A stretch of 64,000 nucleotides of DNA from Nepenthes gracilis (taxonomy: Eukaryota > Streptophyta > Magnoliopsida > Caryophyllales > Nepenthaceae), in assembly GCA_033239525.1 (NCBI GenBank), contig BSYO01000014.1, forward strand, positions 5,002,536 to 5,066,535, given 5' to 3'. The position numbers and the translations under genes were made by a program. Each line of letters begins with the position of its first letter. Within the stretch, counting starts at the first letter, position 1. This document shows, piece by piece, positions 1-60,976 of the stretch. The notes beneath the pieces are model-generated. The model was not told the DNA's origin. It searched no databases and worked only from the letters and a program-made list of their open reading frames with translations.

Positions 1-860
1 TCTGGGTCTCAAAAAAAAAAAAAATGGCAGGTTCTGCTGCTGTTTTGTGAACTCCGGATTGGAGCACTTTGGACGGAGTGCTTTCCTTTTTTCGGAGCTC
101 CAAAAAGCCGGAACATCTTTATTGGGTGTTCCTAATTTCCGGAGTGTCCACCTTGTGAACATTCCGGAGTCCTTATGCTTCACTATTAGGAAGGACGGAG
201 TGGAGCGATCTTTTCCGGAGTGACCTTTCTGCGATCTTTTCCGGAGCTCCTTTGCCTCACCAAATGGTGGACACCTTAGTTCATTGGCGGAGTGCCTTTG
301 AGGACGGAGTGGCTCTCTGTAGCCGGAGTTCTTCTTGAGGCGGAGTGGCCTTTGAAGCCGGAGTGTCTTTGCTGCAGTGGCAGGGTGATTCTCCATTCCG
401 GAGTGGCTTTTCTTTCGGAGTGCTTTTCCCCAAAAAAAAAAATAAAATTCGGAGTGCTTTTTTCCGGAGTTCTTTATTTGCCGGAGTGCAAATGTCCGGA
501 GTGCATTTTTTTGGTGTGATGTTTTCCGGAGTGAAATTTGCTGGAGTTCTTTTTGTCGGAGTGCATTTTCCGGAGTACTTTCTGCTGAAGTGCAATTTTC
601 CAGAGTGCTTAAACCGGAGTGCTTTTTTTCGGAGTTCTTTTTGCCGGAGTCCAAATGTCCGGAGTGCAATTTTTCGGTGTGAAGTTTTCCGGAGTGGAAT
701 TTGCTGGAGTACTTTCTGCCGGAGTGCATTTTTTTCCGGAGTACATTTTGCTGAATTTCAATTTTTCGGTGTGCTTCTTTAGCTGGAATGCGTTTTGTCT
801 CCTTGGACGGAGTGCGCAACCGGAGTGATTTTCTGCGATTTGGGCGGAGTGATCTTAATG
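1..860 (+). repeat. Degenerate CCGGAGTG array (LINE 3' UTR type)
   Basis: The stretch is built of CCGGAGTG-like seeds (variants CGGAGTT, CGGTGTG, CTGGAGT) separated by short T-rich spacers. From about 460 to 780 the spacing is mostly 15 bp. The same type of array follows a LINE ORF2 at 53350-54600 and leads straight into the same type of 3' tail, so I read it as the 3' UTR of such a LINE, 5'-truncated by the window edge. The open frames across it come from the 15-bp period and are not taken as genes. Confidence 0.75.
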
Positions 861-994
861 ACTTGTGTCATATATTTTGGGGTTTCCCTTTTTTTTCTTT
901 GTGTCTTTTTCCAAGTCGGCAAAACACTTGGAAAAAACACAGTCTTTGTACATTTTAATTTAATTTAATGTAATTAATTACTTACCAAAAAAAA
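841..994 (+). mobile_element. Conserved LINE 3' tail module with hairpin and poly(A)
   Basis: Contains GGGGTTTCCC at about 879-888, then a long stem-loop at 901-940 (CCAAGT at 911-916 pairing with ACTTGG at 926-931, extended by T/A pairs and GTGT/ACAC), a T-rich linker, and TTACTTACC followed by poly(A) at 987-994. This is the CGGCAAAAC-loop subtype of the tail found throughout the window. Confidence 0.85.
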
Positions 995-1047
995 GATTAT
1001 GTATTTTTTTCCTTTTCATTTATGAAATTTACTTACAAAAAAAAAAG

Positions 1048-1603
1048 GGATTTCCTCATGATTTGCCAAGGATGAATTCCCGGAATGCCTGGGATGGACT
1101 CCCGGGATCCATCGGATGGTATTTTGCAATCTGTACAGAGTTATGTCATAATATGCTGGGATGGCATTTGTTCGGTATGCAACAAATTACTGTAAATGTC
1201 GAAATGACATGTTGGCCCAATTGTTGTAAAATGTCGGTTTGCTCCTTGCCCTATATGACCCAAGCTGGTTGTGTGCGCTTTTTGCTCGGTATGCAGCAAA
1301 AGGCCGGGATGGCTCTTCGCCCGGTATGCAACAATGTAGCAAAATGCTGATATAGAAATGTTGTACAGAGTCTCTTAACCGGTTGAGTCGAAGGCTCGTG
1401 GCCGGTTTGGATGATGGTTTTTTGGCCGGTTTTTTCCATTTGTAAGCTTTATTTCGGTATCATGAAAAGTTTTTTGGCGGTTCTCGAAGTATACCCTAAC
1501 GTCTATATTCTACCTCTAAGTTGGCAAAACACTTGGAGTTAGAATATTATTTTTGTACTTTTTTTATTTTAATTTAATTTTACTTACAAAAACAAAAAAA
1601 AAA
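1048..1603 (+). mobile_element. Short LINE-type copy with GGAATGG/GGTATGC body and 3' tail
   Basis: The body has repeated CCCGGAATG, CCGGGATGG and CGGTATGCAACAA motifs, a variant of the seed arrays elsewhere. The long hairpin is at about 1507-1547 (CTAAGT/ACTTGG core with TATTCTA/TAGAATA outer stem), followed by TTTAATTTAATTTTACTTAC and poly(A) to 1603. Another poly(A) end lacking the hairpin sits just upstream (TTACTTAC plus A10, ending 1047). No open frame of interest. Confidence 0.7.
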
Positions 1604-1795
1604 GATTTAACACTGACTAATATCTATTTTTTTTACTTTGTATGGCTTATTCGGATACTAAATTGTGACTAGTCCTTACATATCTTTATGTTGTTCGTCA
1701 AAATAATAAAAAAATAAATAACCATAGGAAAACTTTTCTATTATTTTTGTGCCAAGATTTTTAATCAACGAGATATTTTTCTATTGTTCCTAATT

Positions 1796-2301
1796 TTTTT
1801 TTGGTAATTAAGAAAAATTGTATTAGAAAAAAGAAGATTTGTAGAAAATCTATATTCTAACTCCAAGTATTTTTCCAATTTGGACGTAGGATATAGAGGC
1901 CAGGGCATCCCTGAGCACCTTACAATTACAATAAAAATAATGGATATTAGACTAATCTACCCAAGCCTAGAAACCCGGTAAGTTCCAAAGAGCATAAGAA
2001 AGTACACAGCCCTGTTCATCTCGAGCATTTACATCACGGTCATTTGTATTTCGGATATTTGCAACGATCTCGGCCAAAAGCATGATCTCGGTCTTTTGTA
2101 TCCCAACCCATTGCACTGGCACTTTGCCGGCTTCGTGGCCAAAACATATAACTTGGTCATTTGCATCCCAACTCTCTGCATACTTTGCGGCCGAAGCAAA
2201 TCTCTTGGACATTTGCTTCTCAGTTCTTTGCAGAGTACAAAGCCCTTTCCGTCTCGGTCGTTTGCATCACAGCTCTTTGCGAACTTTTCAGCCAAAAGCA
2301 A
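1796..2301 (-). mobile_element. Complete ~506-bp non-autonomous element with target-site duplication
   Basis: The duplication CTATTGTTCCTAATT is at 1781-1795 and again at 2302-2316. On the minus strand the unit starts TTGCTTTTGGCTG, has a repetitive body with about 55-60 bp spaced TTTGCATCAC/CCCAACTCTTTGC motifs (2030-2300), then the tail with the long hairpin (1849-1890 in plus coordinates), and ends TTAATTACC-poly(A). No ORF. It is either a 5'-truncated LINE 3' UTR or a self-contained SINE-sized unit. Confidence 0.85.
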
Positions 2302-5113: not shown

Positions 5114-6110
5114 TTTCTTTTTTTTTTTGGTAAGTAAGTATTTTGGATTAACGGGAGAAAAATTACAAAAGCTATGTTTTATCTCCAAGTATTTTGACTT
5201 GGATTTAAAAACATAAAATGCTAGGCATACCGAGTAACCGTACAACGAGATAATACCAAAATAGCCTTTAAGAGAACAACGTTCAGAGAAGAACAAAATA
5301 TGTAATATGAAGTTACACAAAGAGAGACACTAAATCATCGCGGAAGCAAGAGCAACTTGTTTGTTTCATTGCTAAGCAACACTGCTCGAGATCACTTGCG
5401 GTGCATCCGGTCCCCACAAGACAGACATATCGCAACTCGCCGAAGATAAAGGAACACAAGCTGCACCAAGATCGGCTTCAAGTCGAATGAGCATCGGGCA
5501 AAGGAACGGCCAAAATTGAATTTAACCACATCGCGGTGGCTCCCACCATGCCTCCAAATATTCCAGAAGCAACTTCAGCTCCCAACATCAGGCCATCAGC
5601 TGAGGAAACAAGTAGCGAATTGTATGCACATCAGCACACCAACCTGGCCAGAGAGGCTGCCCGAATGCATTAGCAGGCACCGGCACTTGTCTAAACACTA
5701 GCGCGGTGCATCAAATCGACAGGCAAGATCCATGACTGCGTCACAAACATCACGGAAAAAATCCAACAAATCGCTGATTTCCTGATTTCACCGCAGTAGA
5801 TCCAGTGAAACCATTCCGGCCACCACGATCAAATCAAAGAAGGACCTAACAGTGCAACCCAAATTGCACTTCAGCAGCCTACAAAGATTCTAATCCGGGG
5901 TGGCGAGCACTATCAATGTTAGCCCTTTTGGCTAGCCGCGTCTACGTGCCTTAGCCCTTTTCTATTCTTTATGTTGCAACTCCTCCATTTCCCGAAGGGA
6001 GGGCAAATAAGTGGTGCCCGGCTTCTTATGGGGTCCCTGTCCAGCAGCCACATCCCCAACAGGAGACACAACTGGAGGATTGAATTCCTCAGGATTACAT
6101 GAGACAGGAC
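5114..6110 (-). mobile_element. Minus-strand ORF1-only LINE, 3' part (rest at 12076-12427)
   Basis: Poly(T) at 5118-5128 followed by GGTAAGTAAGTATTTTGG is the reverse complement of the common tail; the hairpin lies at 5178-5215. About 700 bp of 3' UTR follows, then an ORF1 C-terminus near 5930-6110. The element is split by a plus-strand LINE at 6111-12075, shown by TACATGAGACAGGAC at 6096-6110 and 12076-12090. ORF1 runs into 3' UTR with no ORF2. Confidence 0.75.
5930..6110 (-). pseudogene. ORF1 C-terminal fragment of the split LINE
   Basis: On the minus strand the frame runs through VSCNPEEFNPP to a terminal PSLREMEELQHKE followed by a stop, with a basic stretch (KRAKARRRG) just beyond. Its upstream continuation is at 12091-12412 on the same strand; both pieces meet exactly at the duplicated TACATGAGACAGGAC. 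The basic end resembles the SRRKxKSKK ends of the other ORF1 copies. The part upstream of 12427 is not found. Confidence 0.65.
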
Positions 6111-6176
6111 TCTCATTCTGAAGCTTGGTTTGCAGTGGTGAATGGTTCATTACTGAAAAGATAAGGCCGCCAGCAT

Positions 6177-6206
6177 TGCTAGAGAGAGAAACTCTCTCCT
6201 CTCTCT
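6177..6206 (+). promoter_or_regulatory. 5' UTR GA/CT hairpin of LINE
   Basis: AGAGAGAGAAACTCTCTCCTCTCTCT can fold on itself, and lies about 105 bp before the ORF1 ATG at 6311. Equivalent hairpins precede ORF1 at 8279-8306, 19581-19610 and 22304-22332. Confidence 0.6.
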
Positions 6207-6310
6207 TCGAATTCAAAATTCGAATCAAAAATTCGATTTGAATTTTGAATCTGCCCGGCATCGTCCTCGGCGTTTACTGTCTTGGGTTTCGGGCGGCTCC
6301 GGTGCTTGCC

Positions 6311-6562
6311 ATGGCCGGCCTCCCGGTTGCTTGCCCGGACCCCCCTCACCCGACTATCCGTATCCATCCTTCCGTTTCAGGCTCGAGATTTCGGTCCCGT
6401 GACCTCGTAGCCAAGCGCCTGCGAGTTTGGTTTCTCTTTCTCACCGTCGATTGGGAGCAAGCGGTGGCCCTATGGCCTCGAGAGTGCGACGGCGCTCATC
6501 CTTTGAGTCATCGTTTCTCTCTCGCCTCGTCTCCTTTCATCCTCGGTTTGCGCCAGGGTTAA
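6311..6562 (+). pseudogene. ORF1 N-terminal fragment (83 codons)
   Basis: Starts in GCCATGGCCGGCC, the same context as the ORF1 starts at 8360 and 22384, giving MAGLPVACPDPPHP. The Pro/Ser-rich N-terminal part is followed by a stop, and neither the DUF4283-like domain nor the CCHC knuckle is present; TGCTG/TGGTGATGC-type 3' UTR follows. The minus-strand copies at 28038-30158 and 12428-14085 have the same layout, so this looks like an internally deleted derivative rather than a random truncation. Confidence 0.6.
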
Positions 6563-8249
6563 CTCTGTTCGTCTCTTCCATTGATTGGGATGGGGTTCTC
6601 GAAGGTCTAGGTGATGGCTCGAGGTGTTGATGCCGGATCGTTCCCTTCGTGGACGGTTTGGGGGATGCGTGGTGTTGTCTTTGGTGTGGTGATGCTTGGC
6701 GATGCTACAAGTCTGCTTTGTGGACTGTGAATGCCTCTCAACTATCTCTGGTGCGTTGGGATCTTTCCTTGTGCTTCCATTTTTGGAGAATTTCTTGGTT
6801 GCTTATGGTATGGTTTGTAGCGAATTGCCGGGTCTTTCTACGGGTTGTGGCTTTGGGAGTTGCTTCCACTGGCTCCCTCGGTGGGTCTCACTCTCTGTTC
6901 GGCTTGTTGTGCTGAAAATGTCTTGGGTTCTTTGGATTGACTACCCATTGCCAATGTGATTCACCCCGGTAGAGTTGGGTTGGGGGTGTTACTTCTCTCG
7001 GGTGGGGCTTTCAGGTTGGGAATGTTGAACCGATCGGGATATTTTTTGGCCGCAATGGCTGTCGGTTGAGTTGAGCTCTCGCTAGTTGTTGTCTACGTAG
7101 GGTACTTCCTTAAGTTGATCTTTGATGTATAATTCTATAGCCAATTGGCTCTTGGATTTCACCTCGGGTTCTTGCAAATGACTTTGTAGACTTGTTTGAC
7201 TCTTCGCGGCTCTCGCCTTTGGGGTTCTCCCGGTTGGATGGGTAGGGGCTCGTGCGGCTTGGATTTGGAACTCTACGGTGGAGTGCGGTGGAATTGGCAC
7301 GATCGGGGTCTGGATCTTTGTTGAACCTCATTGGGTCTTTGGTGTCCAGTTGCCTTTTTCCTTTATTGGCGTGGGATTGTGTAGGAGTTGTTTGTAGTTG
7401 GCTGTACCCGGCCATAGTTGGAGGTCAGCTGATGCCGGGGTGCTTTAGTCTTTGATTATGGCTCTTGCCTCATCTTGAGGAAGTCTTGCAGTCAAAAGTC
7501 CTATGGTTGCTCGATCTTTCTTTGTTTGTGTGTCCCATTTGGTTGGGGTGGGGGCCCTGTGTATTTATGGATTGGGACTCTGTGTGGCTGAAGGATGAGT
7601 AGTTTGTGATTCTTTTGGTGCTAAATTCTCCTCGCTTGAGGTGGTGCCTGTCTGCTTCTTTGCTCTATTGTGGTGAAATCAGATTGCAGTCCTTTGATTG
7701 CATTTGTCAGTTTCTTACAACAAGATGTGTTGTTGTTGCTTTGCAACACTTTGCTTGGGATGCAATGTCACTGGGTCCCAGTGGTAAATCTTTAAAATTT
7801 CTTGTATCCAAGATGGTGTATCTATTGCACGCCGAGGAAGATGTAGTTGCATTGTGCCGCTGCTTATGATGCTCGCTGTCTAGCACTTTACTGCAGCCTT
7901 CTTTGGCCCCGCCAAGAAATGCCGTCTTGTTGTATTGATAGCTTGCTTTATATCCCGATTCCATTTTGATTCGGATCTTTGGGTTGTTGGACCCAGATTG
8001 TTAATGAGGTCGGGTCGATGAAGGTGGATCGGATGAAATTCTCGGTCATTGATCGGTGATCCGTGGGTACTCTGGAAGATGCGGCTCTTCTGATGTTTTC
8101 TTTGGGCGCCGTAATGGCCTCGTTGAAAGACCAGCCGAGGTTTTCCGTTGCGGGTTTGATATCCCGAATCCCATGCCGATGGAAGCCGGATCGGTGGGAA
8201 CCCCGGAAGGAGAGGCTTCTAGCGTTTGTTTCTTGGTTTGGAGTTGAGT
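6563..8249 (+). other. 3' UTR of the 6111-12075 LINE (first part)
   Basis: G/T-rich non-coding DNA with recurrent GGTGATG, TGTTG and GATGCT words. Short frames are present on both strands but none matches the LINE proteins. It is interrupted at 8249 by the next LINE and resumes at about 11644. Confidence 0.5.
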
Positions 8250-8278
8250 GCATACCAGAGAGCCAACAGACAGGGTTC

Positions 8279-8306
8279 CTAGAGAGAAGCTCTCGCTTCT
8301 CTCTAG
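8279..8306 (+). promoter_or_regulatory. 5' UTR hairpin of LINE
   Basis: CTAGAGAGAAGC, loop TCTC, GCTTCTCTCTAG: a perfect 12-bp stem, 53 bp before the ORF1 ATG. It is the best-preserved copy of the 5' hairpin in the window. Confidence 0.7.
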
Positions 8307-8359
8307 AAATTCAAATTTGTGCGGCCTTTGGGTTAGCATCTTCTAGTTGCCGCCCGGCC

Positions 8360-10190
8360 ATGGCCGGGTCCTTGGCGGACCCGGATGGGCTCGAGTCTCG
8401 ACTCGCTCCTCTTCTTCCCCTTCGACGCCCTCCGTCTCCAAATCCGTCGGGCGTTCCTACTCTCTTCCCAGTCGAAGAGAATCGTCGATGGCCACCGACT
8501 CCGCACCCGATGCCTCCTTCCCGGCTTGTTCGAAACCTAAGGAGCGCCGTACCCATTAAGCGTGCGTACGGTGATTCTCCTCTTTCCCGGGAACGTGGTC
8601 ATCCAACCCGGATCTTCTTGGCATGGTATGTGATTTATCTTACTACCCCCTCAAAATCCCAATGGTGACACGAAACCCATCTCTCCCTCCCGATGTGGTC
8701 GACTGTGGTAACGATTTTTGGGGTTTTACTCAGCGGGCATTTCGACTCCACCTCATTTCCGCCGTAAAAGCCATAGCAGTTGAGGAAACTATGGACCGAT
8801 TCGGCATCAAGCATATTCTACGGGAACGACGCCGGGTTCTTTTTTCTTCCGTTTCTCATCCTTGGCGTCGATGGACAAATGCCTTCTCGCTGGTCCTTGG
8901 GTGTTCTCTCGGGAAAGCCATCTTTCTCGCCCGGTGGACGCCGGGAATGGTGTTGTCGAAGACCGAGCATATGCGTTTTCCTACCACGGGATTAAGCTGA
9001 GCAATATTCCGATTCGGATTGGACTGCCGGGCTTAGTTGGATTGCTAGCTCCATTGGAGTCCCTTTGCGCCTTGATCCCCGAACCGCTAAAATGGAAAAT
9101 ATCTCCTTTGCAAAAGTCTGCGTGGAGGTTGGAGCGATGGCCCGTTCTGCATTTGCATTGCCATCAATCCCGAACCAGGTTCCAGTCTATCTTGAAGGTG
9201 AATGTGGAATACTCGTGGAAACTCGGTGCGGCATACTGCCTCCTTATGTGGCCATGATGTAGCTAAATGCAAGTTAAGAAGGTCTCTTCATAGCCTATTT
9301 CCCCAAGTCGCCCTCTGCTCTTGGGTCATCTGATCAGTTAGCCCTCATGAACACTCGCTTGTTGAATTGGACTCAGCAGAAGTGAAGGTTCCACTGTCTC
9401 CATTGGGGCCTTCTCGAACCCCCGAGCCTCCCGGTGAGACTTGCTCCGAGAACAACTGGCAACTCCTTCCTGAAGGATGTGAATGGTTGCTTATCTTGAT
9501 TCTTGGTTTGGAGTCCACAGGAATCCCGACATTCCTTATCGAGCCTTGTCTAGTGAAACTTCGCAACTTGGGTCGAATGTAGTCCTGTCTCGGTGGATAC
9601 CGGGCTGGAACTCCACTTGACCCGTATTCTCCAAGGAGTGAACACGATAATTCAATGATTTTGGTGGATGCTGCGTTGCTAGCGATTGGTTTTCGTAAGC
9701 GCCTCCCGCCCCTGCCATGATGCAGCTATGTACTCCAAAATCCCGCTTTCCAATTGGTCCTTCCTACGTTGAGATTCTTTGTTGCGGGGATTGTCTTGAC
9801 CCAACGGGTTCTTTGGTGGGAGGTGAGGCCTGTTGGCGATCTCCGAGGCCACCGAAAAGCCGCTCTTGACCGGGGTGGATGCCCCTTGGATCTGTGTTGC
9901 CGCCAATTGACCGGGTTTCGGTTCTTACCCCGGTCCCCGATCCGAGAAGTTGACACGCTTAAGACTCCTCCATCTATCTCACGCATCTTAACAAAGTACT
10001 CGTTGGATACTCCGCTCCATTTGGGCCATGGCTCGAGTAGTCCAAATAGTATGTGCGTTGCCTCTTCCGGACTCTCACCGACAATTGGAGGTATCATATT
10101 TAGGCCCGCAAGCGAGACCCTCTCGCCTAGATTCTGGCAAACAGTAAAGTCTCGTAGGAAGCGAAATCCGCGCCCAAAACTCAAAGGGTT
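8360..10190 (+). pseudogene. LINE ORF1 (gag-like), decayed
   Basis: Begins MAGSLADPDG in GGCCATGGCCGG context. The DUF4283-like region is recognisable at 8690-9000 (DFWGFT..., SAVKAIA..., GKAIFLARWTPGM), followed by LDPR-AKMENISFAKVCVEVGA (about 9068-9140), which matches the ORF1 at 22384-24009. Further on are PPSISRILTKYSL (about 9970-10010) and a basic end, KSRRKRNPRPK (10150-10180). Several frameshifts and stops separate these blocks; the CCHC knuckle is not clearly readable. Such proteins are thought to bind element RNA. Non-functional here. Confidence 0.75.
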
Positions 10191-11500
10191 AACGCTGCGT
10201 TTAAAGGTTATGGATGGTGCCATGAATTGGGATCGGGTTTCTTGCCCGAGACCGATCATGGCTGGCCAAAGTTATGGATGTGGGTGTCCGGTATTCCCTA
10301 TACAATTGTTGGTATAGAAATGCCTTGCTCGATGCTAAGTGGTTAGGTTCTGCTATGTATCATCTCGCACGACCCGCTTTATGATGCGGAAGGCCGATCG
10401 ATGATTGATCAAGGTGCGATGGTGCTCACACCCCGACTGTCATTGGTCCCAGCCGCAATACTTGGTCAACGATTCCTTTTTCGCTAATGCGGTGATGAGT
10501 TCTTTCGTCTTCGCCGATGATGGTGCTTAGGCTGAAAATGCTTTTATAGATGAGCCTCGTGAGGCTCGGTTTCATGAGGCTGTGTTGGTGATTGATTTGC
10601 TTGACTTTGATGATTGGTGATTTGTGAATTTTGCATTGGATGCTATTGGGGTTGTGGCCATTGTATTCTGGCTGATGATTCGGTGTAGATTGTCGTTCCT
10701 AATGCTGGTTGGTCTTTGAAGACCGGTGGGCAGCTATGTTGGGGCAGCTTTTGATGACCCCAGAGTGAGTTGGAATCTCTTTTTTTTGACTTGGGCTAGC
10801 ACTCGGGATGGGTGGTGCCGTCACCCTCTTGTTGTTGCTAAGGTGCATCGCGGTGCAAAGGATTTGGCGATGGTAGTTGTGCGGCCGGTTTGCCGATTGC
10901 TGCCATCCGGGATCCTTAAGATTCTTTGGTCTTGTTTTCTAACCGCGAAGATGGTCTTCTTGGTTTTTAATCGGGGGCCTCGCTTGCGGTGGAAAGTCTC
11001 GGCTGTTGAGCGGTAAGGTCTTGATGGGCTTGCCATGAGACAGAATGTTGTGTAATCGGGTGTGGATTGAAGTACGATGCCCTGCACCGTGAGGTTGGTG
11101 GATCGGCTTGCTTGTTGTCACCGCAGATGTAGCTTGACCGGTGCGTTTGAGGGGCTGGTGTTCACTGTAATTGGCTTGTTTTTCTTAAGCGACTGATGGA
11201 CCTCTTGGTAGATCTTTGATGAAAGTGTTAATTTTTTGGAGTCCCGATGTTGATGCTCGGTTGATAAGGTGCTTAGCATGGGCTACTACCCCTTCGATTT
11301 TGGATTGGTCCGAGTGCATTGGCAACCGGGCCTTCCTAGGCGTCTTCTATCCAGCTGATGAATGGGCCTGGATGCATTTGCGGTTGCGTGATGATCTGTG
11401 TGATGATTGTGTGTCTCGCTAATTTGTAACTTCAAATTACATAGGTTGTTCTTTTGTGGAACGTAGTCCTCTTAGAGGCTGATTAGGTATTATATGTTGT
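10191..11500 (+). other. 3' UTR of the ORF1-only LINE 8250-11629
   Basis: G/T-rich, non-coding, with repeated TTGGTGATTGATTTG, GATGCT and GGTTTG words. It follows ORF1 directly, with no trace of ORF2. Confidence 0.5.
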
Positions 11501-12090
11501 ACCTTTGCTCCGGGGCATGCCCTAGCTTCTTATGTTTTAGTTCCAAGTCAAAATACTTGGAGATAAAACATTGTTTCTTGTAATTTTTTTCTCCCTATAA
11601 TCCAAAATACTTACTTACTAAAAAAAAAAGTCGGGAGTTAAGTCTCACTGCGTGGTCTTGATCATTCTTGTGGTGGTTTGTCTGGCGATTACACGTGGGC
11701 TTGTGCCCCCCCCGTATTCTGGCCGGGATGGCGGTTAAGGGCGCCTTTCTTGGTGATGCTCTTGGACTATTTTGGTGCATTGGCTGATTTTCTTCGGCCG
11801 CCTCAGATGAGGTCTTGCGGATCTGGTGCTTGAAGTCCAGTGATGTAGCTGATCTTGTGTGTGGTTGCCTATGTGTAATTTCAACTTACATTTGTTATTT
11901 TTTGCTGAACGCTGTTCTCTTAGAGGCTTTTTTGGTATTATCTGTTGTACCGTTTGCTCGGGGTATGCCCTAACTTTTTATGTTTTATTTCCAAGTCAAA
12001 ATACTTGGAGATAAAACATGATTTTGTAATTTTTTCTCCCTATAATCCAAAATACTTACTTACCAAAAAAAAAAATACATGAGACAGGAC

Positions 12091-12427: not shown

Positions 12428-14085
12428 CTTTTTTTTGTTTTTTGTTTTTTTTGTAAGAAGTATTTTGGATTAACGGGAGAAAAAAATTACAAAAACTATG
12501 TTTTATCTCCAAGTACTTGACTTGGATTTAAAACATAAAATGCTAGGGTATACCCCGAGCAACCGGTACATCAGCTAATACCAAAATAGCCTCAAAGAGA
12601 ACATCGTTCAACAGAAGAACAAATATGTGAAATAAAATGACACAAAAGCAGACACTAAAGCGTCAACCGTGCAAGAATCTGCAAACAACAACGGCCACAT
12701 CACTTGCGGTGCATCCGGGCCCATCTTCATCATGGACATACTGGATCTGCCCAGTATACATGAGCACAAGCTGCATCAAGATCAGCTTCAAGCTAAAATC
12801 GAACCACTTCAGCAATGGCTCCTACCATGCCTTCGGCAGCAACTTCAGCTCCCAATATCAGGAAGGAGCGAAATTGAAAGCATATCAGCACACCGGCCAG
12901 GCTAGAAAGGCCGCCAAATGCATACGCATGGACCAGCATTAGTCTCAACATAAGCACGGTGCATCAACTCAACAGGCAGCATCCGCAGCCTGCAGAACAG
13001 CAACACTGGAGAGAAAACCAGCAAATTAGCAGCAAATTTCACAGCTGCAAATAGATCCATCAAGCCAATCCAGGCCACCACGATCATTACACAGTAAGGA
13101 CCAAACCAGGCAACCCAAATTGCACTTCGGCAGCCTACAGCCATGATCCACTATAAATACAGAAAACAAATAGATGCAATCCAATCGGCAAAAAACAGGA
13201 TGCGGAAGGAGGATGCAGACAAAAGATAGAATAGCCGGGTCAGCAGACCATTAATTCCATCAACTCATGGTCGCACGGAGCACGGGTCACCGCACGTGCG
13301 GATACCAATCAACATATTCCTCATGAGATTTACTCACGTAGGAGGAAAGGAAGATTAATGCATAAAACCATCAGCCTCGCCCCTTCATCAAATCGCAAAG
13401 TGATACTCTACCAACCAGAATCGGGAATGCAGAAACAATCGACCCAACCTCAAACAAAACAAGCTCCAAACAGCCCATCGGGGCGACATCAAGAGCCACA
13501 AAATCAACATTAGAGATGCCGGGGCATCAAGAATCGCGGCGTGGGGCGGCAATGACCCAATCCAGAGGCGGCCAATGCTACCAACTTCAACGGTCCGGCA
13601 AGATCAGAGAGATGAACCAACTTCAATCCACTGATTTCGATAAAGGCCGGTCTTAACCCGGGGGTGAGAAAACCTCCACACCCCGTAAAAATCGGATACT
13701 TGGACTGATTGCTCAGTAGCGGCCAAAATCCATCTCCACTAAATCCCGATCCTTAGAGGCATGATCCACCTCCTTCAAAATTAGCCAGCACCAAGCGGAC
13801 CCACTAGGCAATGAAGATGGGCCAGACTCGTGCCTCAGTGATGAGACAGTTTCAAGTTGGACAGAAACCATCGGTCTTGAAGGGGAAAACCCAACATCTG
13901 CCGCACTGCCACCAGAGTCCAGTGGTAGAGAAGGAGTCCAGGGGAAAACCCGAACGCTGATCATTGATTGTTGCTGCGGGGTTTTTTTGGAGCCTGAGGT
14001 ACTGCTCACTGCTTTTGGTTGCTTCCCTTGTCCTTGCATTTGGGATGGATTGGTCGGTGTCTCTCTCCACTGTCCTTGAAGGGAC
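12428..14085 (-). mobile_element. Minus-strand LINE deletion derivative (ORF1 start plus 3' UTR)
   Basis: The tail is at 12428-12560 (poly(T), GTAAGAAGTATTTTGG, hairpin at 12500-12540). The 3' UTR continues to about 13700 and is similar to that of 5230-5900 (both have ACCAAAATAGCCT and CACTTGCGGTGCATCCGG). An ORF1 N-terminal frame follows at 13713-14039. The right boundary at about 14085 is a judgement: I found no duplication, and a CCGGAGTG array begins there. Confidence 0.6.
13713..14039 (-). pseudogene. ORF1 N-terminal fragment
   Basis: A 108-codon minus-strand frame starting MQGQGKQPKAVSS, Ser/Pro/Gln-rich like other ORF1 N-termini. Its end contains a stretch (SAWCWLILKEVD) that may correspond to SARWADIVRKDS of the ORF1 at 22384. 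It stops before the DUF4283-like domain and then passes into 3' UTR. Assigned mainly by position and composition. Confidence 0.4.
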
Positions 14086-19565: not shown

Positions 19566-19580
19566 AGAGAGAATCCGGAT

Positions 19581-47800: not shown

Positions 47801-47810
47801 TCATTCGTTG
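44805..47810 (+). other. TGCTG-rich 3' UTR of the 40785-47941 LINE
   Basis: Opens with three A-run blocks, two followed by G-runs (44812-44827, 44918-44935, 45016-45027), each next to GAGGCTGCTGG/GGCCCTGTGGGC-like repeats, then about 2.7 kb of TGCTG-rich non-coding DNA. No ORF supported. Its CGGGAGTTACTGATTTTG at 47187 aligns with other 3' UTRs. Confidence 0.6.
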
Positions 47811-48175
47811 TATCAATGTGCTCGGGGAATGCCCCTGCGGTTATGGTTTATCCCCAAGTCGGAAAAACACTTGGTGATAAATCATTACTTGTAAAATTTT
47901 TTTCTCCCCTTAATCCAAATCACTTACTTACCAAAAAAAAAGAATCTGCTGATGTACAATGACTGTGTTCAGTTTCTGTTTCTATTAGATCGCTCCTCTT
48001 AGGGGTTTTTTTGTGGTATTTTCTGATGTACCAGTTGCTCGGGGTATGCCCTAGCAGTTGATGTTCTAACTCCAAGTCAAAAAACTTGGAGTTATTACAT
48101 TATTTTTATAAATTTTTCTCCCTTTAATCCAAAATACACACTTACTTACAAAAAAAAAAAGGCATTACTGAAGTG

Positions 48176-49130: not shown

Positions 49131-49723
49131 GCTAAGCTGTGGAATTTCGGATGGCCGATTGATAGCTAAGGGTTCCTACAACAGATTCATGCTGCTATGG
49201 ACTCTGGTCTGGAATGCTGATGCTGCTGATGATGGTGGATTAGCCGCTTGAGAAGGAGCTGATTTGTCGGTTGCTGGTAAACATGCTGAAAGGCTAGGCT
49301 GCTGGATTCTGGGAGTAGCTGCTAGTCTTGGGAGAAAGAACCTTGCTGCTGTTTATAGCTAATACTGTTGATGTGGGAGGAATTGGTTTTGTCTGATTTT
49401 GGGTGTAGGTTCTGGAAATGTTGATCTGGACCTTGGTGGCTAGATGATGCTGGAGTTCCCATTAGTGCTTTTCTTGTTGAATCTGTTTTTTAGGTTTGTT
49501 TTTGTTGTGGGGCCGGGTTGCATACGGTCGATTTAGATGAATTACACCTAGGTGAGGTTTTTCAATTTTCTTTTCATCGGTTCATGATTTTGTTCATGGT
49601 GATGCTCGGGGCATGCCCTAGCTCGTTGTTCTAAATCTAAGTTGGCAAAACACTTGGAGTTAGAACATCATTTTTATAATTTTTATTTCATTTAATTCAT
49701 TTAACTTATTTACCAAAAAAAAA
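49131..49723 (+). mobile_element. TGCTG-type 3' UTR copy with tail
   Basis: TGCTGATG-rich body, then GCATACGGTC...ATTACACCTAGGTG (shared in reverse with 19090-19140), TGATGCTCGGGGCATGCCC, hairpin TTCTAAATCTAAGT/ACTTGGAGTTAGAA at about 49631-49668, poly(A) to 49723. Confidence 0.75.
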
Positions 49724-50075: not shown

Positions 50076-50874
50076 ATGCTGCCTGGGAGCAACAAAAGGC
50101 AACTGCTGTCATGGGGATGCCGATCATTTCCCTTGCAAAGCTATGTGCTCTGAATTCATAGCTGCTGTCGAGATACTGGTTACTGGTTGCAATGCATTGA
50201 AGTGTTTCTGGGGCTGCTGTCATGATGCAGCGTTGCTGTGCAGATGCTGTGTTGAAATCCCAATGCTGGTGCATTGATGCAGTAACCCAATTTTAGGCTG
50301 TTTTGGCCTGATAGTGACTTGGGTTGCTGTAGAAGTTGGGACAGCTGCCTTTCTTTTCATTCTTCTGGTCTAGAACAATATGCCCCTCGGTTTGTTGCCA
50401 AGCTATGATTGGTGCTGCTCGCCTTGTTGAGGATTCGATGCATCTCGGATCGGCTGAACAGGGGCCGTGGTGGTTGATGGGGAAGGCTTTGTTAATGTTG
50501 GCAACTAGCTAATGTTGTGGAGGGCTTGAAGTAGTGCTGTCTGTGCCGAGATGCTGTATGCTGCGCTGTTGTGTTGATGTGTTACAGTCTACAGACCTAG
50601 TGGCTGTTTTGTACTATTGCAGATTGCATGATGTGCTGCTGTGGCCCATCTGTACATGATTTGACCCATGTTTCCGTTGTATAATTTGGGTAGTTGATTA
50701 AGTTGTGTCCGGGCCTCTTGTAGGTTCTTTTTGTTTCCTCTCTTACGAGATGTTAGGGGCATGCCCCGATGACTTTGATTTCATTCCAAGTCGAAAAAAC
50801 ACTTGGAGTAAAATCACTGTCTGTATTATTTTCTTTTCCCTTTAATCCAAAATCACTTAATTACCAAAAAAAAA
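50076..50874 (+). mobile_element. 0.8-kb TGCTG-type copy with 15-bp TSD
   Basis: AAATTTTGTGATGGA at 50061-50075 and 50875-50889. Body is TGCTG-rich; the tail has the fully palindromic GGGGCATGCCCC near 50758 and a hairpin TGATTTCATTCCAAGT/ACTTGGAGTAAAATCA around 50780-50815. Confidence 0.92.
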
Positions 50875-50889
50875 AAATTTTGTGATGGA

Positions 50890-51195: not shown

Positions 51196-51199
51196 AAAT

Positions 51200-53294
51200 T
51201 ATACCCTGCTTTGCCTCATCCTAAAGATCAAATCTCCCACCAAGGTTTCCGACTACCGCCCCATCGCGTGCTGCAATGTCATTTATAAGATCATCGCCGC
51301 TCGCCTCCAACCTACGCTTCCTTACCTTGTTGGCAATTGTCAAACCGCATTCATCTCGGGGAGGAGTATTGGAGACAACATCCTGCTGGCTCAGGATCTT
51401 CTCCACAAATACCACCTCAACAAGGGGGCCCCTCGATGTGCTATTAAAGTTGACCTGATGAAGGCCTTCGATTCTATCAACTGGGACTTCATTATTGCCG
51501 TCCTTGAGTTGATGAATTCCCCCCCCCCATTATGGTTAATTGGATCAAACAATGCATCACCACCACCTCTTTCTCCATTAATCTCAATGGCTCACCGGTG
51601 GGCTTCTTTCGAGGGGCCAAAGGACTTAGACAGGGTGACCCCCTCTCTCCCTATCTTTTCATCCCTGGGATGGAAGTCCTGAATGGCATTCTGACGAGAT
51701 GACTAGGACTAATCTTGACTTTAAGTACCATTGGAATTGCGATCGCTCCCGTATTGTGATGCTTGGCTTTGCGGACGACCTCCTTCTTTTCTCCAAAGCG
51801 GACCGCAACTCCATTCAGGCCATTCATGAGTGTCTCAACATCTTCAGTTGTTTGTCCGGCCTTACCCCCAACCCAGATAAGAGTGAGGTCTTTTGTGGCG
51901 CTATTAGTGAGGATACCCTTCATTGCATCATTGACATTCTCGGATTTAAGCGGGGCTCCCTCCCCGTCGGGTATCTCGGAGTCCCCCCTTATCACCACGA
52001 AGCTCACCTACTCCATTTGCAAGCCTCTCCTTGACCGTATTCAACTCAAAATCTCTTCTTGGAAGAACGTGGCTCTCCTTTGCTGGTAGGCTTCAGCTTA
52101 TTTCTTCCATCCTCTCTACTATCCACAATTATTGGGCTTCCATGTTCATTCTTCCCAAATCTATCCTGAACAGTATTAATAAAGCCCTCCGCTCCTTCCT
52201 GTGGCATGGCTCCCTTGATGGTAAATTCTCTGATAAAGTTGCCTGGAAGGATGTCTGCTCCCCCAAAGATGAAGGGGGATTGGGTTTTAAAAATCTGGTA
52301 GCATCCAACAAAGCCCTTCTTTGCCGTCAGTTCTGGAGGATCATCACCAAAGATCCTGCCTCCATTTGGGTCTCTTGGTGTTACATTCACAGACTCAAAG
52401 ATCGCTGCATTTGGACCATAAAAATTCCAGATTCAGCCCCTTGGAGTTGGAAAAAGCTTATGAAGCTCCGACCTGCTCTTCGTCCCATAATCCGATTTCG
52501 TATTGGTGATGGGCGGACACTTTCCTCTGGCTTGATCATTGGCACCCTCTGGGCCCTCTCTGTGATCGGACTAGTGAGAGAATCAGATGTGTTACTGGCT
52601 TGCCCCTGGATGCAAGAGTTAAGAACATCATCACTAATGGTGATTGGTGCTGGCCCAACCAATTTGACACGGAGGTAGCGGATATTGCTGAGCATATGCC
52701 CCCTACCTCCCTGATAGCTCTCGCAAGGACCTTGCCCTTTGGACGCCTGACCACCCTGGTTCTTTCACTACAAAATCCGCTTATAGTATTTTCCATCCTC
52801 CTAACGGCGTGGTGGAGTGGCCTTGTCTTGTTTGGACCCCCCTGTTCATCCCCGCTCATGCCTTTATTCTTTGGCTTGCTATCCATCTCAGGCTCAATAC
52901 CATGGACCGGATCAGCCAGTACCTTCACATCTCCCCAATTTGTGTTCTTTGCTCTAATGATAGTGAAAGTCATAGCCACCTCTTCTTCAACTGTCCTTTC
53001 TCCTCCGCTGTCTGGTGCCTCATGCGCTCCCAGGCAGGTCTCAGCTGGCCCTACCCTCTCTGGTCCTCCAACGTTTTATGGGCTGCTAAACATTGGAAGG
53101 GTAAAAGTCTTAAAGCCAGCCTCCTTCCGCCTCACCCTTGCGGCCACGATTTATTTCATCCGGAGGAGAGGAACCAACGTGTCTTCAAGAACATGCGCAC
53201 CGCAATCCAGTGGCCCATCAAATTACCGCTGCTATTCGGGAAACTGAATCCTCTCATTTTTCTATCGCCCGCAGTGACAGACCGGTTTCGATAA
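51200..53294 (+). pseudogene. LINE ORF2 fragment (RT and zf-RVT)
   Basis: RT motifs: DYRPIACCNVIYKIIA, FISGRSIGDNILLAQDLLHKYH, AIKVDLMKAFDSINWDF (51440-51490), GLRQGDPLSP-like at about 51628-51655, GFADDLLLFSK (about 51765-51800), SLPVGYLGVPP. Then ISSILSTIHNYWASMFILP, SFLWHGSLDG, DSAPWSWKKLMKLRP (52031-52520), zf-RVT CVLCSNDSESHSHLFFNCPF (52940-53000) and WKGKSLKAS, ending near 53290. Frameshifts near 51300, 51520, 51700, 52010, 52500 and 52680. The endonuclease is missing. Confidence 0.9.
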
Positions 53295-53349
53295 GATGGA
53301 GCATCCTCTTACGTCCTGAAAAGGATTCTATCCCCCATTCTTTGTCTTC

Positions 53350-54600
53350 ACCTAGTGCTCCGGTTTCCGGAGCGATTTATGTGCTTCGTATCCGGCGCTT
53401 GTGGACTCGGATTTGAGAGCTTGTGTTCTCAATTCGGAGCTCCCTTGCTTTTGTGACTTTGGCTTCTTTTTAAAAAAAAAAAAAAAATCCTGTACTTGCA
53501 TTTGTGGGCTCCTGTCCCTGGAGCGCTCTCATGCTTATTCTTAATTTCCGGCTTGTGAACTCCGGATTCCGAAGCGCCCTTGCTTTGAGGTCCTTGGCTC
53601 CTCTCCAAAAAAAAAAAGGGACTTGCCTTTGGTCTTTTGTTCACCGGATTTCAGAGTTCTTGTGCGCTCTTGTAACGCCTTCGTGTACTCCGATTTCCGG
53701 AGTGCCTTGTCGCAGCTCCTGTGTTTTTCGATCTTCTTCCAAAAAAAAAAAAAAACAAAAGGGGGGGCTTGCTTTTGGTCTTTTGTTCACCGGATTCCGG
53801 AGTTCTTGTGCGCTCTTGTATCGCCTTCGCGAACTCCGGTTTCCGGAGTGCCTTGTCGCAGCTCCTATGTTTTTCGATCTTCTTCAAAAAAAAAAAAAGG
53901 GGTTCCGGCTTGCCCTCTTCCGGAGCTCCTTATCTGCTGGAGTGCATTTTTTCGGTGTTCATTTTTTCGGTGTGATGTTTTCCGGAGTGAAATTTGCTGG
54001 AGTTCTTTTTGCCGGAGTGCATTTTTCCGGAGTTCTTTCTGCTGAAGCGCAATCTTCCGGAGTGGTAGGACGGAGTGGAGTGATCTATTCCGGAGTGACC
54101 TCCTGCGATCTTTTCCAGAGCTCCGGCATGCCCTTCTCCGGAGCTCTTTATCTGCTGGAGTGCATTTTTCCGAGTACATTTTCTCGGTGCGATGTTTTCC
54201 GCGGTGAAATTTCTTTGGAATTCTTTTTGCCGGAGTGCATTTTTTCCGGAGTTCTTTCAAGCTGAAGTGCAATCTTCGGAGTGCTAAAATCGAAGGGATT
54301 ATTTTTCGGAGTTCCTTTTTGTTGAACTACAAACGTCCGGAGTTTTTTCGTAGTGGATCTTGCTGGAGTTCTTTCTGCCGGGGTGCACTTTTACTGAAGT
54401 GCATTATTCGAAGTTTTCCGGAGTGGAATTTTCCGGAGTGGATATTGCTGAAGTACTTTATTCCGGAGTGCACTTTCTCCGGAGTACATTTAGCTGATGG
54501 GATATTTGCCGGTGTGCTTCTTTAGCTGGAATGTTTTTTGTCTCCTTGGTCGGAGTACGTAGCCGGGGTGATTTTCTGCAATCTAGTCGGTGCGACCTCT
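53350..54600 (+). repeat. CCGGAGTG array serving as the LINE 3' UTR
   Basis: Near the ORF2 end the units are CGGAGC/CCGGAGTGCC with GTGAACTCCGG; two blocks of about 180 bp are repeated (around 53620-53740 and 53770-53885, both with GCTTTTGGTCTTTTGTTCACCGG-like sequence and A-runs). From 53930 to 54260 the period is 15 bp. A 253-codon frame (53504-54265) and shorter ones on the minus strand result from this. Confidence 0.8.
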
Positions 54601-54740
54601 ATGACTTGTGTCATGTATTTAGGGGTTCCCCCCTTTTTTTTTCTATGTGTCTTTTTCCTAGTCGGCAAAACACTTGGAAAAAACACATTCTCTGTACATT
54701 TTAATTTATTTTAATACAATTAATTACTTACCAAAAAAAA

Positions 54741-57167: not shown

Positions 57168-57610
57168 TGGCTTGGGGTAAAGTTTGGGGCGGCAGCGTTG
57201 TGGTGATCCCTCGCTGGCTGAAATCGATGCTGGTATATGTGGTGGGTGTGATGCAGATGCCTTTTGCTTCCTGCTGGTGGAATACTAGGGGTGCCTCTAG
57301 GATGCTGGTAATTTCGTTCTGATGTAGTAAGTTGCTGCGGGGCGATCGGATGTTGTTGATCCAGTCGTTTCGGGAGTCACTAATTTTGCTTCTGCTTATG
57401 TATAATGACAGTGAGCATTTTTTTGTTTTCTATTAGATCGTTCCTCTTTGAGGTTTTTTGAGGTATTCTCTGATGTACCAATTGCTCGGGGTATGCCCTA
57501 ACATCTTATGTTCTAACTCCAAGTCAAAAAACTTGGAGTTATAACATGGTTTCTATAGTTTTTTTTCTCCCTTTAATCCAAAATACACACTTACTTACCA
57601 AAAAAAAAAA
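57168..57610 (+). mobile_element. 443-bp TGCTG-type tail copy with TSD in integrase
   Basis: GATACGGCCCCATTG at 57153-57167 and 57611-57625, perfect. Contains TCTATTAGATCGTTCCTCTTTGAGG, GCTCGGGGTATGCCC, a hairpin TCTAACTCCAAGT/ACTTGGAGTTATAA and CTTACTTACC-poly(A), nearly identical to 48030-48160. Confidence 0.93.
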
Positions 57611-58294: not shown

Positions 58295-59172
58295 GCAATG
58301 ACCGATATAGAGCAACAATGCCGGTTTGCTTGAAGAGGCGGTTCCCTTTGGAATTCTCAGAAAGGATGCCGTTTTAGCTTTCCCGAATAAAAATAGCAAA
58401 AAAAAGAGTTCGCATTCTGGAAGGTATGCCTTTAACTCCATAGTTTGCCGGAATGATGTTGCTTACCGGTTTGGAGTTTTGTTAGGATGACACCAGTTGC
58501 TGGATTGGTGCATTGTGCTGAAATGGAGGAATCTCCCGGTATGCAAGACTGATGTGTTTTATCTGATGTACCTTATACTCAGGGTATACCCTAACATTTT
58601 ATATTTTAAATCCAAGTCAAAATACTTAGAGATAAAACATAGTTTTTGTAATTTTTTCTCCCTTTAATCCAAAATACTTATTTACCAAAAAAAAGCAATG
58701 ACTGATATGGTGCAACAATGTCAGTTTGCATAAAGTGGCACGTTTTCTTTGGAATTCCCAGAATGGACATCCTCTTAGCTTTCTCGGATTGAACGATCTG
58801 GTTTTTTGCATATTGGCAGAACGGACCACAATGTCCAGAATGGAGCAAATTTGCCGAATTGCTTACAGTGGTTACCTCCTTTTGGATTTTTCAGAATGGA
58901 TGACCTTTTTGGGCTTCATGGGATGGAATTTTCCAGAATGGATTGGTTTCCATTGCCATGCCACCCATTTCCGGAATGGTCTTGGACTGTTGCCAGTATT
59001 GATGGCTTGTATTTTCGTTTGTATTTTTATTTTCATGATTTGTGTCGTAGCGCTCTGGGGATACCCTTACTGCTATATTTTAACTTCAAGTTGGCAAAAC
59101 ACTTGAAAATAGAACATAGGTTTTGTAATCTGTTTTCTTATTTTAATACAATTTAATTACTTATAAAAAAAA
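58295..59172 (+). mobile_element. Two related short LINE-type copies in tandem in integrase
   Basis: Unit 1 is 58295-58694 and unit 2 is 58695-59172. Both start GCAATGAC(C/T)GATAT, then GCAACAATG(C/T)C(G/A)GTTTGC, then a GGAATGG-type body. Unit 1 ends with the CAAGTCAAAATACTT-type tail, unit 2 with the CAAGTTGGCAAAACACTTG type. Alternatively GCAATGACCGATAT is a TSD (13 of 14). Either way the gypsy integrase resumes at 59173. Confidence 0.7.
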
Positions 59173-59539
59173 GAATCGAGAAGACCCATTTCTTATCTCG
59201 GCCATTCAACGAAATGGAACATATAAGCTTCGAACCCAGAACAGCAAGTTGGTCCTAAGGACGTGGAATGTTGTCCATCTGAAAAGGTAGTACTAATAAG
59301 GTTCACACTAGGCCCAGGTAGGTCACACGTGTGCATGAAATTGCATGTAATACTGTATCATATTTAATAAAATGATTTATTTTTCACATATTTCTATTGT
59401 TTTGATTCTTTTTCTTTCTTGCATGAATGATTGCGTGAAATTGTATAAAAGTAGATGACCTAGAAGCCCCTAAGTCGGGTGAAATTGTATGAAAGCAAAT
59501 GACCTAGATGCCCTTAAGTCCGGTGGGCTTTTGCTCACC

Positions 59540-59835
59540 CGTAGTTAAACCTTTGTCCCATATCAAGTAGTCCGTATGCGGTCGAATTAAATCCTGGTCC
59601 CAACTAAGTGACCTGTAAGCAGTCGGATTAAACCTTGGTCTCATACCAAGCAGCTCGTAAGCGATTAGATTAAACTTTGGTCCAAAACTAAGCAGCTTGT
59701 GAATGGTCAAGTTAAACTTCGATCCCATACCGGGCAGCCAATAAGCGGTCAGATTAAACCTCGGTCCCATACCAAGCGGCACAAAAGTAGTCGAATCAAA
59801 TATTGATTCCATACCAAGCGGCATGTTCATCGTTG
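59540..59835 (+). repeat. Seven ~42-bp tandem repeats downstream of gypsy pol
   Basis: (A/G)TTAAAC(C/T)T(T/C)GGTCCCATACCAAG-like units start at about 59544, 59586, 59627, 59669, 59711, 59753 and 59795. Tandem repeats in the 3' untranslated region are usual in Tat-type plant gypsy elements. Confidence 0.8.
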
Positions 59836-60000
59836 AACAAGAAACTTTAGGGGGCTTTCCTAGCACACGTGCGACGACCTCCTCCCGTAGAAGATAGCAC
59901 CGTCAGTTTGCAATAGTCTGTAAATCGAAGCTAAGTGTAGAAGAATGCCACATGCTCCAAGAATATGTAGGACACCCTGAATTACAATCTAGGCCTCACC

Positions 60001-60648
60001 ATGCAAAGCAAAAGCATTATCAAACCACCTAATCTTCTACGGGAGGTGGTATACTTGGATAAATTTGTGGTAGTATTCATTGATGATATCTTGATTTATT
60101 CAAAGAATCATGAGGAGCACGAAATTCATTTGAGGAAGGTACTTCAGGTGCTCCGCGATGAGAAATTGTATGCCAAGCTGAGTAAGTGTGAGTTCTAGCT
60201 CGAAAAGGTGATGTTTTTGGGACATGTGATTTCTGATGGTGGCATTTCTGTGGATCCTAAGAAAATAGAGGCTGTTACAAATGGGAGCAGACTAGCTTCT
60301 GTGATCGAGGTTAGGAGCTTTCTGGGTATGGCGGGATATTACAGGCGTTTTGTAGAGAACTTCTCACAGATTGTTATGCCTCTAACTTGGTTGCTGAAGA
60401 AAGAGGCTAAGTTTGTGTGGACAGAAGAGTGTGATCTGAGCTTCCAGGAGCTAAAGGATCGTTTGACCACCGCTCCGGTGCTGATCATTCCAGGAGTTCA
60501 GGAGACTTTGAGGTGTACTGCGACGCCTCTAAGGCGGGTCTAGGATGTGTGTTGATGCAGCATGATAAAGTTGTGGCATATGGGTCTAGACAATTGAAGG
60601 TGCATGAGAAAAATTATCGTACCCATGATCTTGAACTTGCTGCTATGG
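60001..60648 (+). pseudogene. Ty3/gypsy (chromovirus-like) RT-RNase H fragment
   Basis: RT end: [82 protein letters not shown]. RNase H start: [39 protein letters not shown]. There is a stop at about 60198 and a frameshift near 60515. The wording is that of plant chromoviruses (Tekay/Del/CRM-like) rather than the dual-RNase-H type just upstream, so it is a separate element. It is cut by a minus-strand LINE copy at 60649. Confidence 0.88.
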
Positions 60649-60976
60649 TTTTTTTTTTTGGTAAGTATTTTGGATTAATGGAAGATAAAAAAATTACAAA
60701 AACTATGCATTAATTCCAAGTATTTTGACTTGGAGATAATGCATAAAGAGTTAGGACATACCCCGAGCAGTTAGTACATCAAAATACACACAAAAACAAT
60801 GACACACAACACAGGGTCAAACACCCAGTGGGCATTATATCAAAAATTTATTAAACCAGCAGAGCAACTGGCGCTCAGCATCAGCACAGCTCCTCCCAGT
60901 TGAAGTGAAGAAGCAGAACTTCAACAAAAATCAGCCAAATCAGGCAATTCCAGTAGCAACGCCGCAACCCAAACCT
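60649..60976 (-). mobile_element. Minus-strand LINE 3' tail copy
   Basis: T11GGTAAGTATTTTGGATTAATGG at the left edge, hairpin at about 60709-60745, GGACATACCCCG at about 60754, then CAGCA-rich body. It is interrupted at 60977 by another minus-strand tail; whether the body resumes later is unclear. Confidence 0.75.

Follow-up and report, generated by a model that had tools for sequence, protein, structure and literature searches.

Whether plant L1-type long interspersed nuclear elements (LINEs) recognise a specific end of their RNA or poly(A) alone is unsettled. The question is raised anew by a 64,000-nucleotide stretch of the Nepenthes gracilis genome (assembly GCA_033239525.1, contig BSYO01000014.1, positions 5,002,536 to 5,066,535, forward strand; hereafter the window), in which copies of one structured 3′ module followed by poly(A) recur on both strands. 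We consider it probable that this module is a stringent-type 3′ recognition end of a plant L1-type LINE group, serving target-primed reverse transcription and used by autonomous as well as non-autonomous RNAs.

Copies and architecture of the 3′ module

An nhmmer profile of the 3′ end, grown iteratively from 21 seeds, gave 36 matches above 8 bits in the window: 31 full-length, two partial (17932-18003 and 49062-49126) and three tail-only. The alignment takes in the 31 and leaves out the other five. An Infernal covariance model built from the 31 recovered, by construction, the same copies at 79-142 bits, and nothing else exceeded 22.4 bits. A first-pass annotation of the window had counted about thirty copies on both strands, in agreement with the 21 forward and 10 reverse copies found here; these run from 856 to 61122, and the span of 841 to 60760 proposed earlier was too short. 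The order of small hairpin, long hairpin, T-rich linker, tail and poly(A) was confirmed, over a length of about 130-140 nt. Two of the small-hairpin starts had to be corrected, to 47824 and 50756. Exact GGGGN4CCCC is present in 5 of the 31 copies and exact CTTACTTACC in 12. The quoted arms of the long hairpin were found near 901, 18233, 27422 and 47844, and the core CCAAGT/ACTTGG, described as kept, is exact in just 14 of the 30 copies measured. Loop positions A67, A68, A71 and C72 of the long hairpin are identical in all 31.

Subtypes were assigned by eye. Subtype A has a short CAAAAW loop and TCTCCC..ATCCAAAATACTTACTTACC, and a subtype A′ comprises the copies at 28043 (-), 47804 and 50742. 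Subtype B is marked by GTTGGCAAAACAC (for example 25378, 49597 and 18922 on the reverse strand), and subtype C by TTTTTCC..GGAAAAA (copies at about 860, 54602 and 15907, with a relative at 27388). Rfam gave no match at gathering score across the window; at E values up to 5, two stretches holding three module copies gave weak, unrelated matches, none of them relevant. The following copies were found by nhmmer and alignment, except where brackets give another basis.

856..994 (+), subtype C, body with CGGAGTGC-type repeats common to 53888-54755 (nhmmer, alignment, Infernal)
1472..1596 (+), subtype B
5121..5242 (-), subtype A
12445..12574 (-), subtype A
15907..16027 (+), subtype C
18199..18321 (+), subtype B
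18922..19046 (-), subtype B
31348..31481 (-), subtype A
32580..32715 (+), subtype A (nhmmer)
49597..49722 (+), subtype B
58562..58694 (+), subtype A
59039..59172 (+), subtype B
60652..60782 (-), subtype A
60982..61122 (-), subtype A (alignment, Infernal)

Read in antisense, the end of every module gives GGTAAGTAAGTAT, which we take to be similar to a strong 5′ splice site; antisense insertions of the module could therefore provide splice donors.

Support for selection on the long hairpin

Both hairpins had been said to covary, as a sign of selection on RNA structure. This holds for the long hairpin and fails for the small one. RNAalifold, applied to the 31-copy alignment, finds a 4-bp small stem and the long stem. 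In the long stem, 10 of the 16 pairs have at least one copy in which both partners differ and still pair. The small GGGG/CCCC stem has no double-changed pair among its four; the variation quoted for it sits in the loop, and GGGGTTTCCC (at about 879) is unable to form four pairs around a loop of 4 nt. For both stems together, 38 cells are changed on both sides, compared to 16.2±3.0 when the letters of the 3′ arm are re-dealt. In the true helices 87.7% of the cells pair, versus 37.5-52.1% in slid helices, and sliding abolishes the signal.

Because re-dealing ignores relatedness, a tree-aware test was built, with a home-made, R-scape-like null in which parsimony substitutions are moved along a FastTree tree. 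The covariation sum of the long helix is 76.0 compared to a null of -0.1±14.5, and none of 1000 nulls reached it (maximum 50.6). The sum also stays above the null when the tree is built without the hairpin columns (null maximum 55.5), and in 17 divergent copies chosen by hand it is 48.4 against a maximum of 38.8. The small helix gave a P of 0.645 at the helix level and about 0.65 in all three runs, and was rejected as a covarying structure. With ungapped, anchored arms in 30 of the 31 copies (32580 missed the anchor pattern), 42 paired cells are double-changed against 17.2 expected and a maximum of 33 in 2000 whole-arm shuffles. Single copies also fold well: seven of eight beat dinucleotide shuffles (z -2.9 to -5.5), each being matched by no more than one of its 200 shuffles. 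By parsimony, one-sided breaks average 35.8 and paired double changes 9.2; many such breaks are to be expected if most copies decay after insertion. These results support selection on the pairing of the long hairpin.

Insertions and the start of reverse transcription

Exact target-site duplications (TSDs) of 12-19 bp were found at 15 of 37 tail hits, with matches of 10-11 bp counted as chance. The insertions so bounded measure 16, 17, 26, 146, 200, 205, 265, 443, 508, 802, 1129, 2851, 3208, 4944 and 5965 bp. From the shortest to the longest, TSD-bounded insertions close with the module, or with just its final bases, and poly(A); the 205-bp one is a tRNA-like short interspersed nuclear element (SINE) that holds no module copy. 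The module-bearing insertions that do not belong to the elements described further below are as follows.

1794..2301 (-), 508-bp insertion with module 1795-1922 at its end, 15-bp exact TSD
6111..12075 (+), insertion with 15-bp exact TSD, 5′ untranslated region (5′UTR) 6172-6326, 83-codon stub and module 11941-12072
15520..15665 (+), 146-bp insertion of module and poly(A), 15-bp exact TSD
17165..17429 (+), 265-bp insertion with module at its end, 18-bp exact TSD
25900..27028 (+), 1129-bp insertion with module 26891-27023 at its end, 18-bp exact TSD
28043..30158 (-), insertion of about 2116 bp with module 28043-28176 at its end, 16-bp TSD with one mismatch
32761..32960 (+), 200-bp insertion with module at its end, 16-bp exact TSD
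35254..38104 (-), 2851-bp insertion of 3′UTR and module 35262-35398, 19-bp exact TSD
50076..50877 (+), 802-bp insertion with module 50742-50873 at its end, 15-bp exact TSD
57168..57610 (+), 443-bp insertion with module 57469-57607 at its end, 15-bp exact TSD

A 12-bp exact TSD also suggests an outer insertion, 27774-32717, around the module at 32580-32715. The short copies were considered as a possible SINE family; this was ruled out, the TSD-bounded copies of 146, 200, 265 and 443 bp being 5′-truncated pieces of longer 3′ ends.

Seven micro-insertions consist of only 5-16 nt of the tail plus poly(A), with TSDs of 13-17 bp and at most one mismatch.

27579..27595 (-), GCTTACC-A10, 17-bp exact TSD
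18667-18682 (-), GTACC-A11, 17-bp exact TSD, within the module at 18620..18785
18620..18785 (-), 3′ module, subtype B-like, with the foregoing micro-insertion inside
others at A-runs near 18516 (+), 18677 (-; the insertion at 18667-18682), 32351 (-), 33698 (-), 35173 (-) and 48489 (+)

They were found at 7 of 31 A-runs that follow TACC and at 0 of 50 other A-runs (at least 8 A; P 7.6e-4), and 20 shuffled windows yielded none. The micro-insertions point to a start of reverse transcription within the tail, beside CUUACC, and to a halt that may come almost immediately.

Target preference was examined in 18 TSD-bounded insertions: 14 of the 15 with exact TSDs (the 4944-bp one was omitted; one of the set is the SINE) and four micro-insertions. 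T precedes the TSD in 15 of 18 (P 1e-4, given that A is impossible there), and 16 TSDs start with a purine, a bias that fits an endonuclease with a preferred nick. Pairing between primer and poly(A) seems dispensable, since just 2 of the 18 TSDs start with at least three A; such dispensability would fit recognition of the RNA end.

The SINE lies at 44285-44489 (-), with a 15-bp TSD, inside open reading frame (ORF) 2 of the element LINE-2 described below, and ends in AACTTACC-A10; its A and B boxes were read by eye. Related copies near 37844-38104 end otherwise than in AACTTACC, and the module model has no match there. With about 8 nt in common, in one copy, the SINE was not accepted as a clear partner of the module.

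The bodies upstream of the module

The first-pass annotation saw one 3′ end on LINEs with unrelated bodies. This description does not hold: every coding remnant found upstream of a module is a plant L1-type ORF1 or ORF2. Pfam detects RVT_1 and zf-RVT, each in three pieces, with Exo_endo_phos on one piece and DUF4283 on two pieces of one ORF1, these last two domains below the curated cut-offs. The ORF2 bodies share 64-69% DNA identity. Among the 120 matches listed for a reverse transcriptase piece (42315-43370), one, a Nepenthes gracilis protein, shows 85% identity across 68% of the piece; the remaining 119 lie at 44-54%, and those with names are from plants. A second LINE query had a single match, at 40%, and with an ORF1 query none of 2545 candidates qualified as a homologue at E 1e-3. 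The bodies appear to be lineages that have diverged within a single plant L1-type LINE group, and their differences reflect this divergence together with fast-changing T/G-rich 3′UTRs, 5′ truncation, nesting and ORF1 elements without ORF2. The module is carried by LINEs with ORF2, by ORF1-only elements, by one element that apparently lacks both ORFs and by many 5′-truncated copies; no element in the window has both a recognisable ORF1 and ORF2. Three elements carry ORF2.

33372..48160 (+), LINE-1, 5′-truncated ORF2 body (RVT_1, zf-RVT); extent proposed from a 14/16 flank match
40978..47941 (+), LINE-2, ORF2 (endonuclease, reverse transcriptase and zf region), T/G-rich 3′UTR of about 3 kb, module 47804-47940
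51197..54740 (+), LINE-3, ORF2 remnants (RVT_1, zf-RVT), 3′UTR with CGGAGTGC-type repeats, module 54602-54740

LINE-1 is interrupted by the reverse-strand insertion at 35254-38104. LINE-2 probably inserted in the 3′UTR of LINE-1, so that the module of LINE-1 would be the one at 48022-48158; the placement is conditional, because the 14/16 flank match lies in a short tandem repeat and no TSD of LINE-2 itself was found. The 5′ end of LINE-2 was likewise not established. It could be read as a full-length, ORF2-only element, but 5′ truncation is favoured because 3′UTR-like sequence precedes it and a short frame, of 68 codons, overlaps the start of its ORF2.

ORF1-only elements

A conserved 5′UTR marks the 5′ ends of four elements (6172-6326, 8271-8375, 19576-19676 and 22299-22399), which are themselves the seeds of the 5′UTR model. 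It holds the palindrome AGAGAGAAGCTCTCGCTTCTCTCT in two elements and variants of it in two, with GCCATGG coming after it. Three of the four lead into ORF1; at the fourth start, 6311, a stop follows after 83 codons, and then T/G-rich sequence.

8251/8271 (approximate)..11629 (+), E2, conserved 5′UTR, ORF1 remnants, T/G-rich 3′UTR, module 11493-11627
19576..27516 (+), E3, 5′UTR 19576-19676, ORF1, second frame, module 27388-27516
22297..25504 (+), E4, full-length ORF1-only element with 5′UTR, ORF1, T/G-rich 3′UTR, module 25378-25503 and 16-bp exact TSD

E4 is regarded as full-length because its TSD-bounded 5′ end coincides with the start of the conserved 5′UTR. Its ORF1 has a weak DUF4283 match and two in-frame stops. 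E3 is an older ORF1 element within which E4 and the insertion at 25900-27028 are nested, and its continuity is deduced from the TSDs of these two. E2 probably lies nested within the insertion at 6111..12075; the best flank match for a TSD of its own (11/15) is at chance level, no better than others nearby. A tblastn search with 13 ORF2 pieces (E 1e-3) found no ORF2 between ORF1 and module in the three ORF1 elements. E3 also has a second open frame after ORF1 (21386-22330 and 25485-25910), the end of which resembles ORF1 C-termini by eye; it has no reverse transcriptase match, and its first piece no Pfam match.

The module as the conserved part of the 3′UTR

In seven elements (the three LINEs and four ORF1-type elements), modules are 68-94% identical over 103-124 nt, whereas the 3′UTR upstream aligns over 0-61 nt compared to 0-36 nt in shuffled controls, with one shuffle per pair, free end gaps and short upstream sequences for LINE-1 (just 40 nt) and for E1 and E3 (about 270-310 nt). 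Within subtypes homology reaches further upstream (for example 760, 530 and 300 nt for three pairs), and the long T/G-rich 3′UTRs are linked by patches alone. The module thus appears as the conserved part of a fast-changing 3′UTR, since modules align where the sequence upstream hardly does.

The long 3′UTRs are strongly T/G-rich on the sense strand (6400-8000, 24000-25400, 38750-40750 and 44800-47750), and the reverse on reverse-strand elements. This produces long, meaningless antisense frames; the long antisense frames in A/C-rich sequence were set aside as compositional, by reasoning alone. In LINE 3′UTRs after ORF2, A-runs are directly followed by G-runs at 44813, 44917, 53607 and 53886, with tandem units of about 108 and 146 bp. 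Short CGGAGTGC-type repeats fill subtype C 3′UTRs and stretches elsewhere, among them 432-775, 53888-54285 and 48203-48323. A remnant at 56003-57203 that holds an RNase H-like domain (RVT_3, PF13456) probably belongs to a long terminal repeat (LTR) retrotransposon unrelated to the module.

Possible roles of the module

Recognition by the LINE reverse transcriptase would be the most economical cause of selection on the long hairpin. The ORF2 protein would bind the long hairpin and its A-rich loop and position the junction of UUACC and poly(A) at the nick in the target, where target-primed reverse transcription would begin. Early stops would yield the short copies. Any RNA bearing the module could use the machinery in trans, which would account for the ORF1-only and ORF-less users, and selection for recognition would keep the module while the 3′UTR upstream drifts. 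Several points weigh against this mechanism. Taken singly, the 20 helix pairs all fall short of significance when the test covers all 9045 column pairs, and they are outranked by two pairs from outside the helices; the best helix pairs, 59-87 and 55-91, have P values of about 1e-3 each and E values of 8-10 over all pairs. The covariation null was our own and not that of R-scape, and the copy at 25386 folds no better than chance (z -1.6, 15 of 200 shuffles as good). All copies come from a single 64-kb window and have common ancestry. Furthermore, every LINE copy must end in the 3′ end of its family, and so sharing alone is no proof of recognition. Conservation could instead serve RNA stability or 3′-end formation.

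This last option, the chief rival, would have the hairpin protect or process the RNA 3′ end, through poly(A) stabilisation, 3′-end formation or export, and not be bound by reverse transcriptase. We regard it as unlikely, although the hairpin does adjoin a U-rich linker and poly(A), and an ENE beside poly(A) increases the mobility of an Arabidopsis LTR retrotransposon (PMC12501189). An ENE is defined there by paired U-rich internal loops flanked by G-C pairs. No such loops were seen by eye in the alignment or the folds, and the Rfam searches described above gave no gathering-score match in the window and nothing relevant in the three copies; a triple-helix element of the ENE type is thus not supported, and other stabilisers may still act on the module. 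Template switching or recombination could also carry the 3′ end from one LINE lineage to another, so that its spread would reflect exchange and not descent. One module end on bodies with non-alignable 3′UTRs would agree with such capture, as would the AACTTACC-A10 end of the SINE copy. However, LINE-1 and LINE-2 are closest both in ORF2 (69% versus 64-67%) and, with the fewest gaps, in the module (82% versus 76-78%), a comparison of a single triple, and we consider exchange very unlikely. That the copies merely share recent ancestry, without selection acting on the structure, appears most improbable: all copies are related and the per-pair tests are weak, but the helix-level covariation stands out from the tree-aware null, also with the hairpin-free tree and in the 17 hand-picked copies, and the module aligns where the adjoining 3′UTR fails to.

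Recognition in trans by one reverse transcriptase also leaves room for a split L1 system, in which ORF1 and ORF2 reside on separate elements that persist together through the shared module. This is a speculative and rather unlikely extension; one window cannot separate it from half-L1 derivatives.

Comparison with known systems

The HAL1 (half-L1) elements of mammals retain ORF1, lack ORF2 and have an L1-type 3′ end and TSDs. E4 is likewise a full-length element with ORF1 and without ORF2; the ORF1-only elements of the window differ in that their ORF1 is probably of the plant DUF4283 type and their common end is a structured module. They may have arisen from an L1 that lost ORF2, although the window holds no intact relative with both ORFs. 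In UnaL2 and UnaSINE1, of the L2 clade, the LINE needs a 3′ stem-loop in cis and TGTAA repeats are present. The module described here has no Rfam match to relate it to these. UnaL2 and UnaSINE1 are named as stringent-type tails by Ohshima (PMC3747384). Two features of a stringent-type LINE 3′ end, a conserved end and a compensated stem, are present in the window, the latter in the long stem and not in the small one. ORF2 with reverse transcriptase and zf-RVT domains, plant best matches among those listed, TSDs and poly(A) are those of plant L1 LINEs.

Celine, an L1-type LINE of poplar, shares with these elements an ORF1 with DUF4283 (a weak match in the window), an ORF2 with endonuclease and reverse transcriptase, poly(A), TSDs of about 15 bp, nested clusters and a biased TSD junction (PMC11288735). 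It has a 189-bp 3′UTR and both ORFs in one element, whereas 3′UTRs in the window reach about 3 kb and none of the elements seen there has the two ORFs in recognisable form; the word hairpin is absent from the text on Celine. In Chlamydomonas, L1-1_CR and SINEX-3_CR share a poly(A)-terminated 3′ end of about 80 nt (PMC3747384). This is also a shared end with poly(A) in the L1 clade, in a green alga, and the comparison is by description only. The available account of the Nepenthes mirabilis genome reports LTR and DNA elements and nothing on LINE ends. Among the matches listed in mainly open literature, none pointed to an ORF1-only plant LINE or to a module like this one, whether from Nepenthes or from the L1s of eudicots; nor did these searches yield the present architecture or its use by ORF1-only elements.

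Stringent L1 tails are already known from some grasses and Chlamydomonas (PMC3747384). The closest description is that of the monocot 1a L1 lineage, whose conserved 3′ end, shared with ZmSINE2 and ZmSINE3, forms a hairpin supported by compensatory changes. As in the window, these are plant LINEs of the L1 clade with a compensated hairpin, poly(A) and an end common to non-autonomous elements. The monocot end has one hairpin in the last 45 nt or so, with conserved UCU in its loop and, 3′ of the stem, CGAG; the module of the window is about 130 nt long, its long hairpin has an A-rich loop, TCT is found in none of 30 loops, and CGAG occurs in 2 of 31 modules, never 3′ of the stem. The non-autonomous users also differ, being ORF1-only and ORF-less L1 derivatives instead of SINEs. 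Ohshima proposed that stringent recognition is ancestral and was later relaxed in flowering plants (PMC3747384). A covarying module on several eudicot L1 lineages would show that it persisted or re-arose beyond the lineages named in that work. For direct assay, the module offers a defined RNA with natural pair-swapped stems and ORF1-only users, and the micro-insertions provide a clean readout of the start of reverse transcription.

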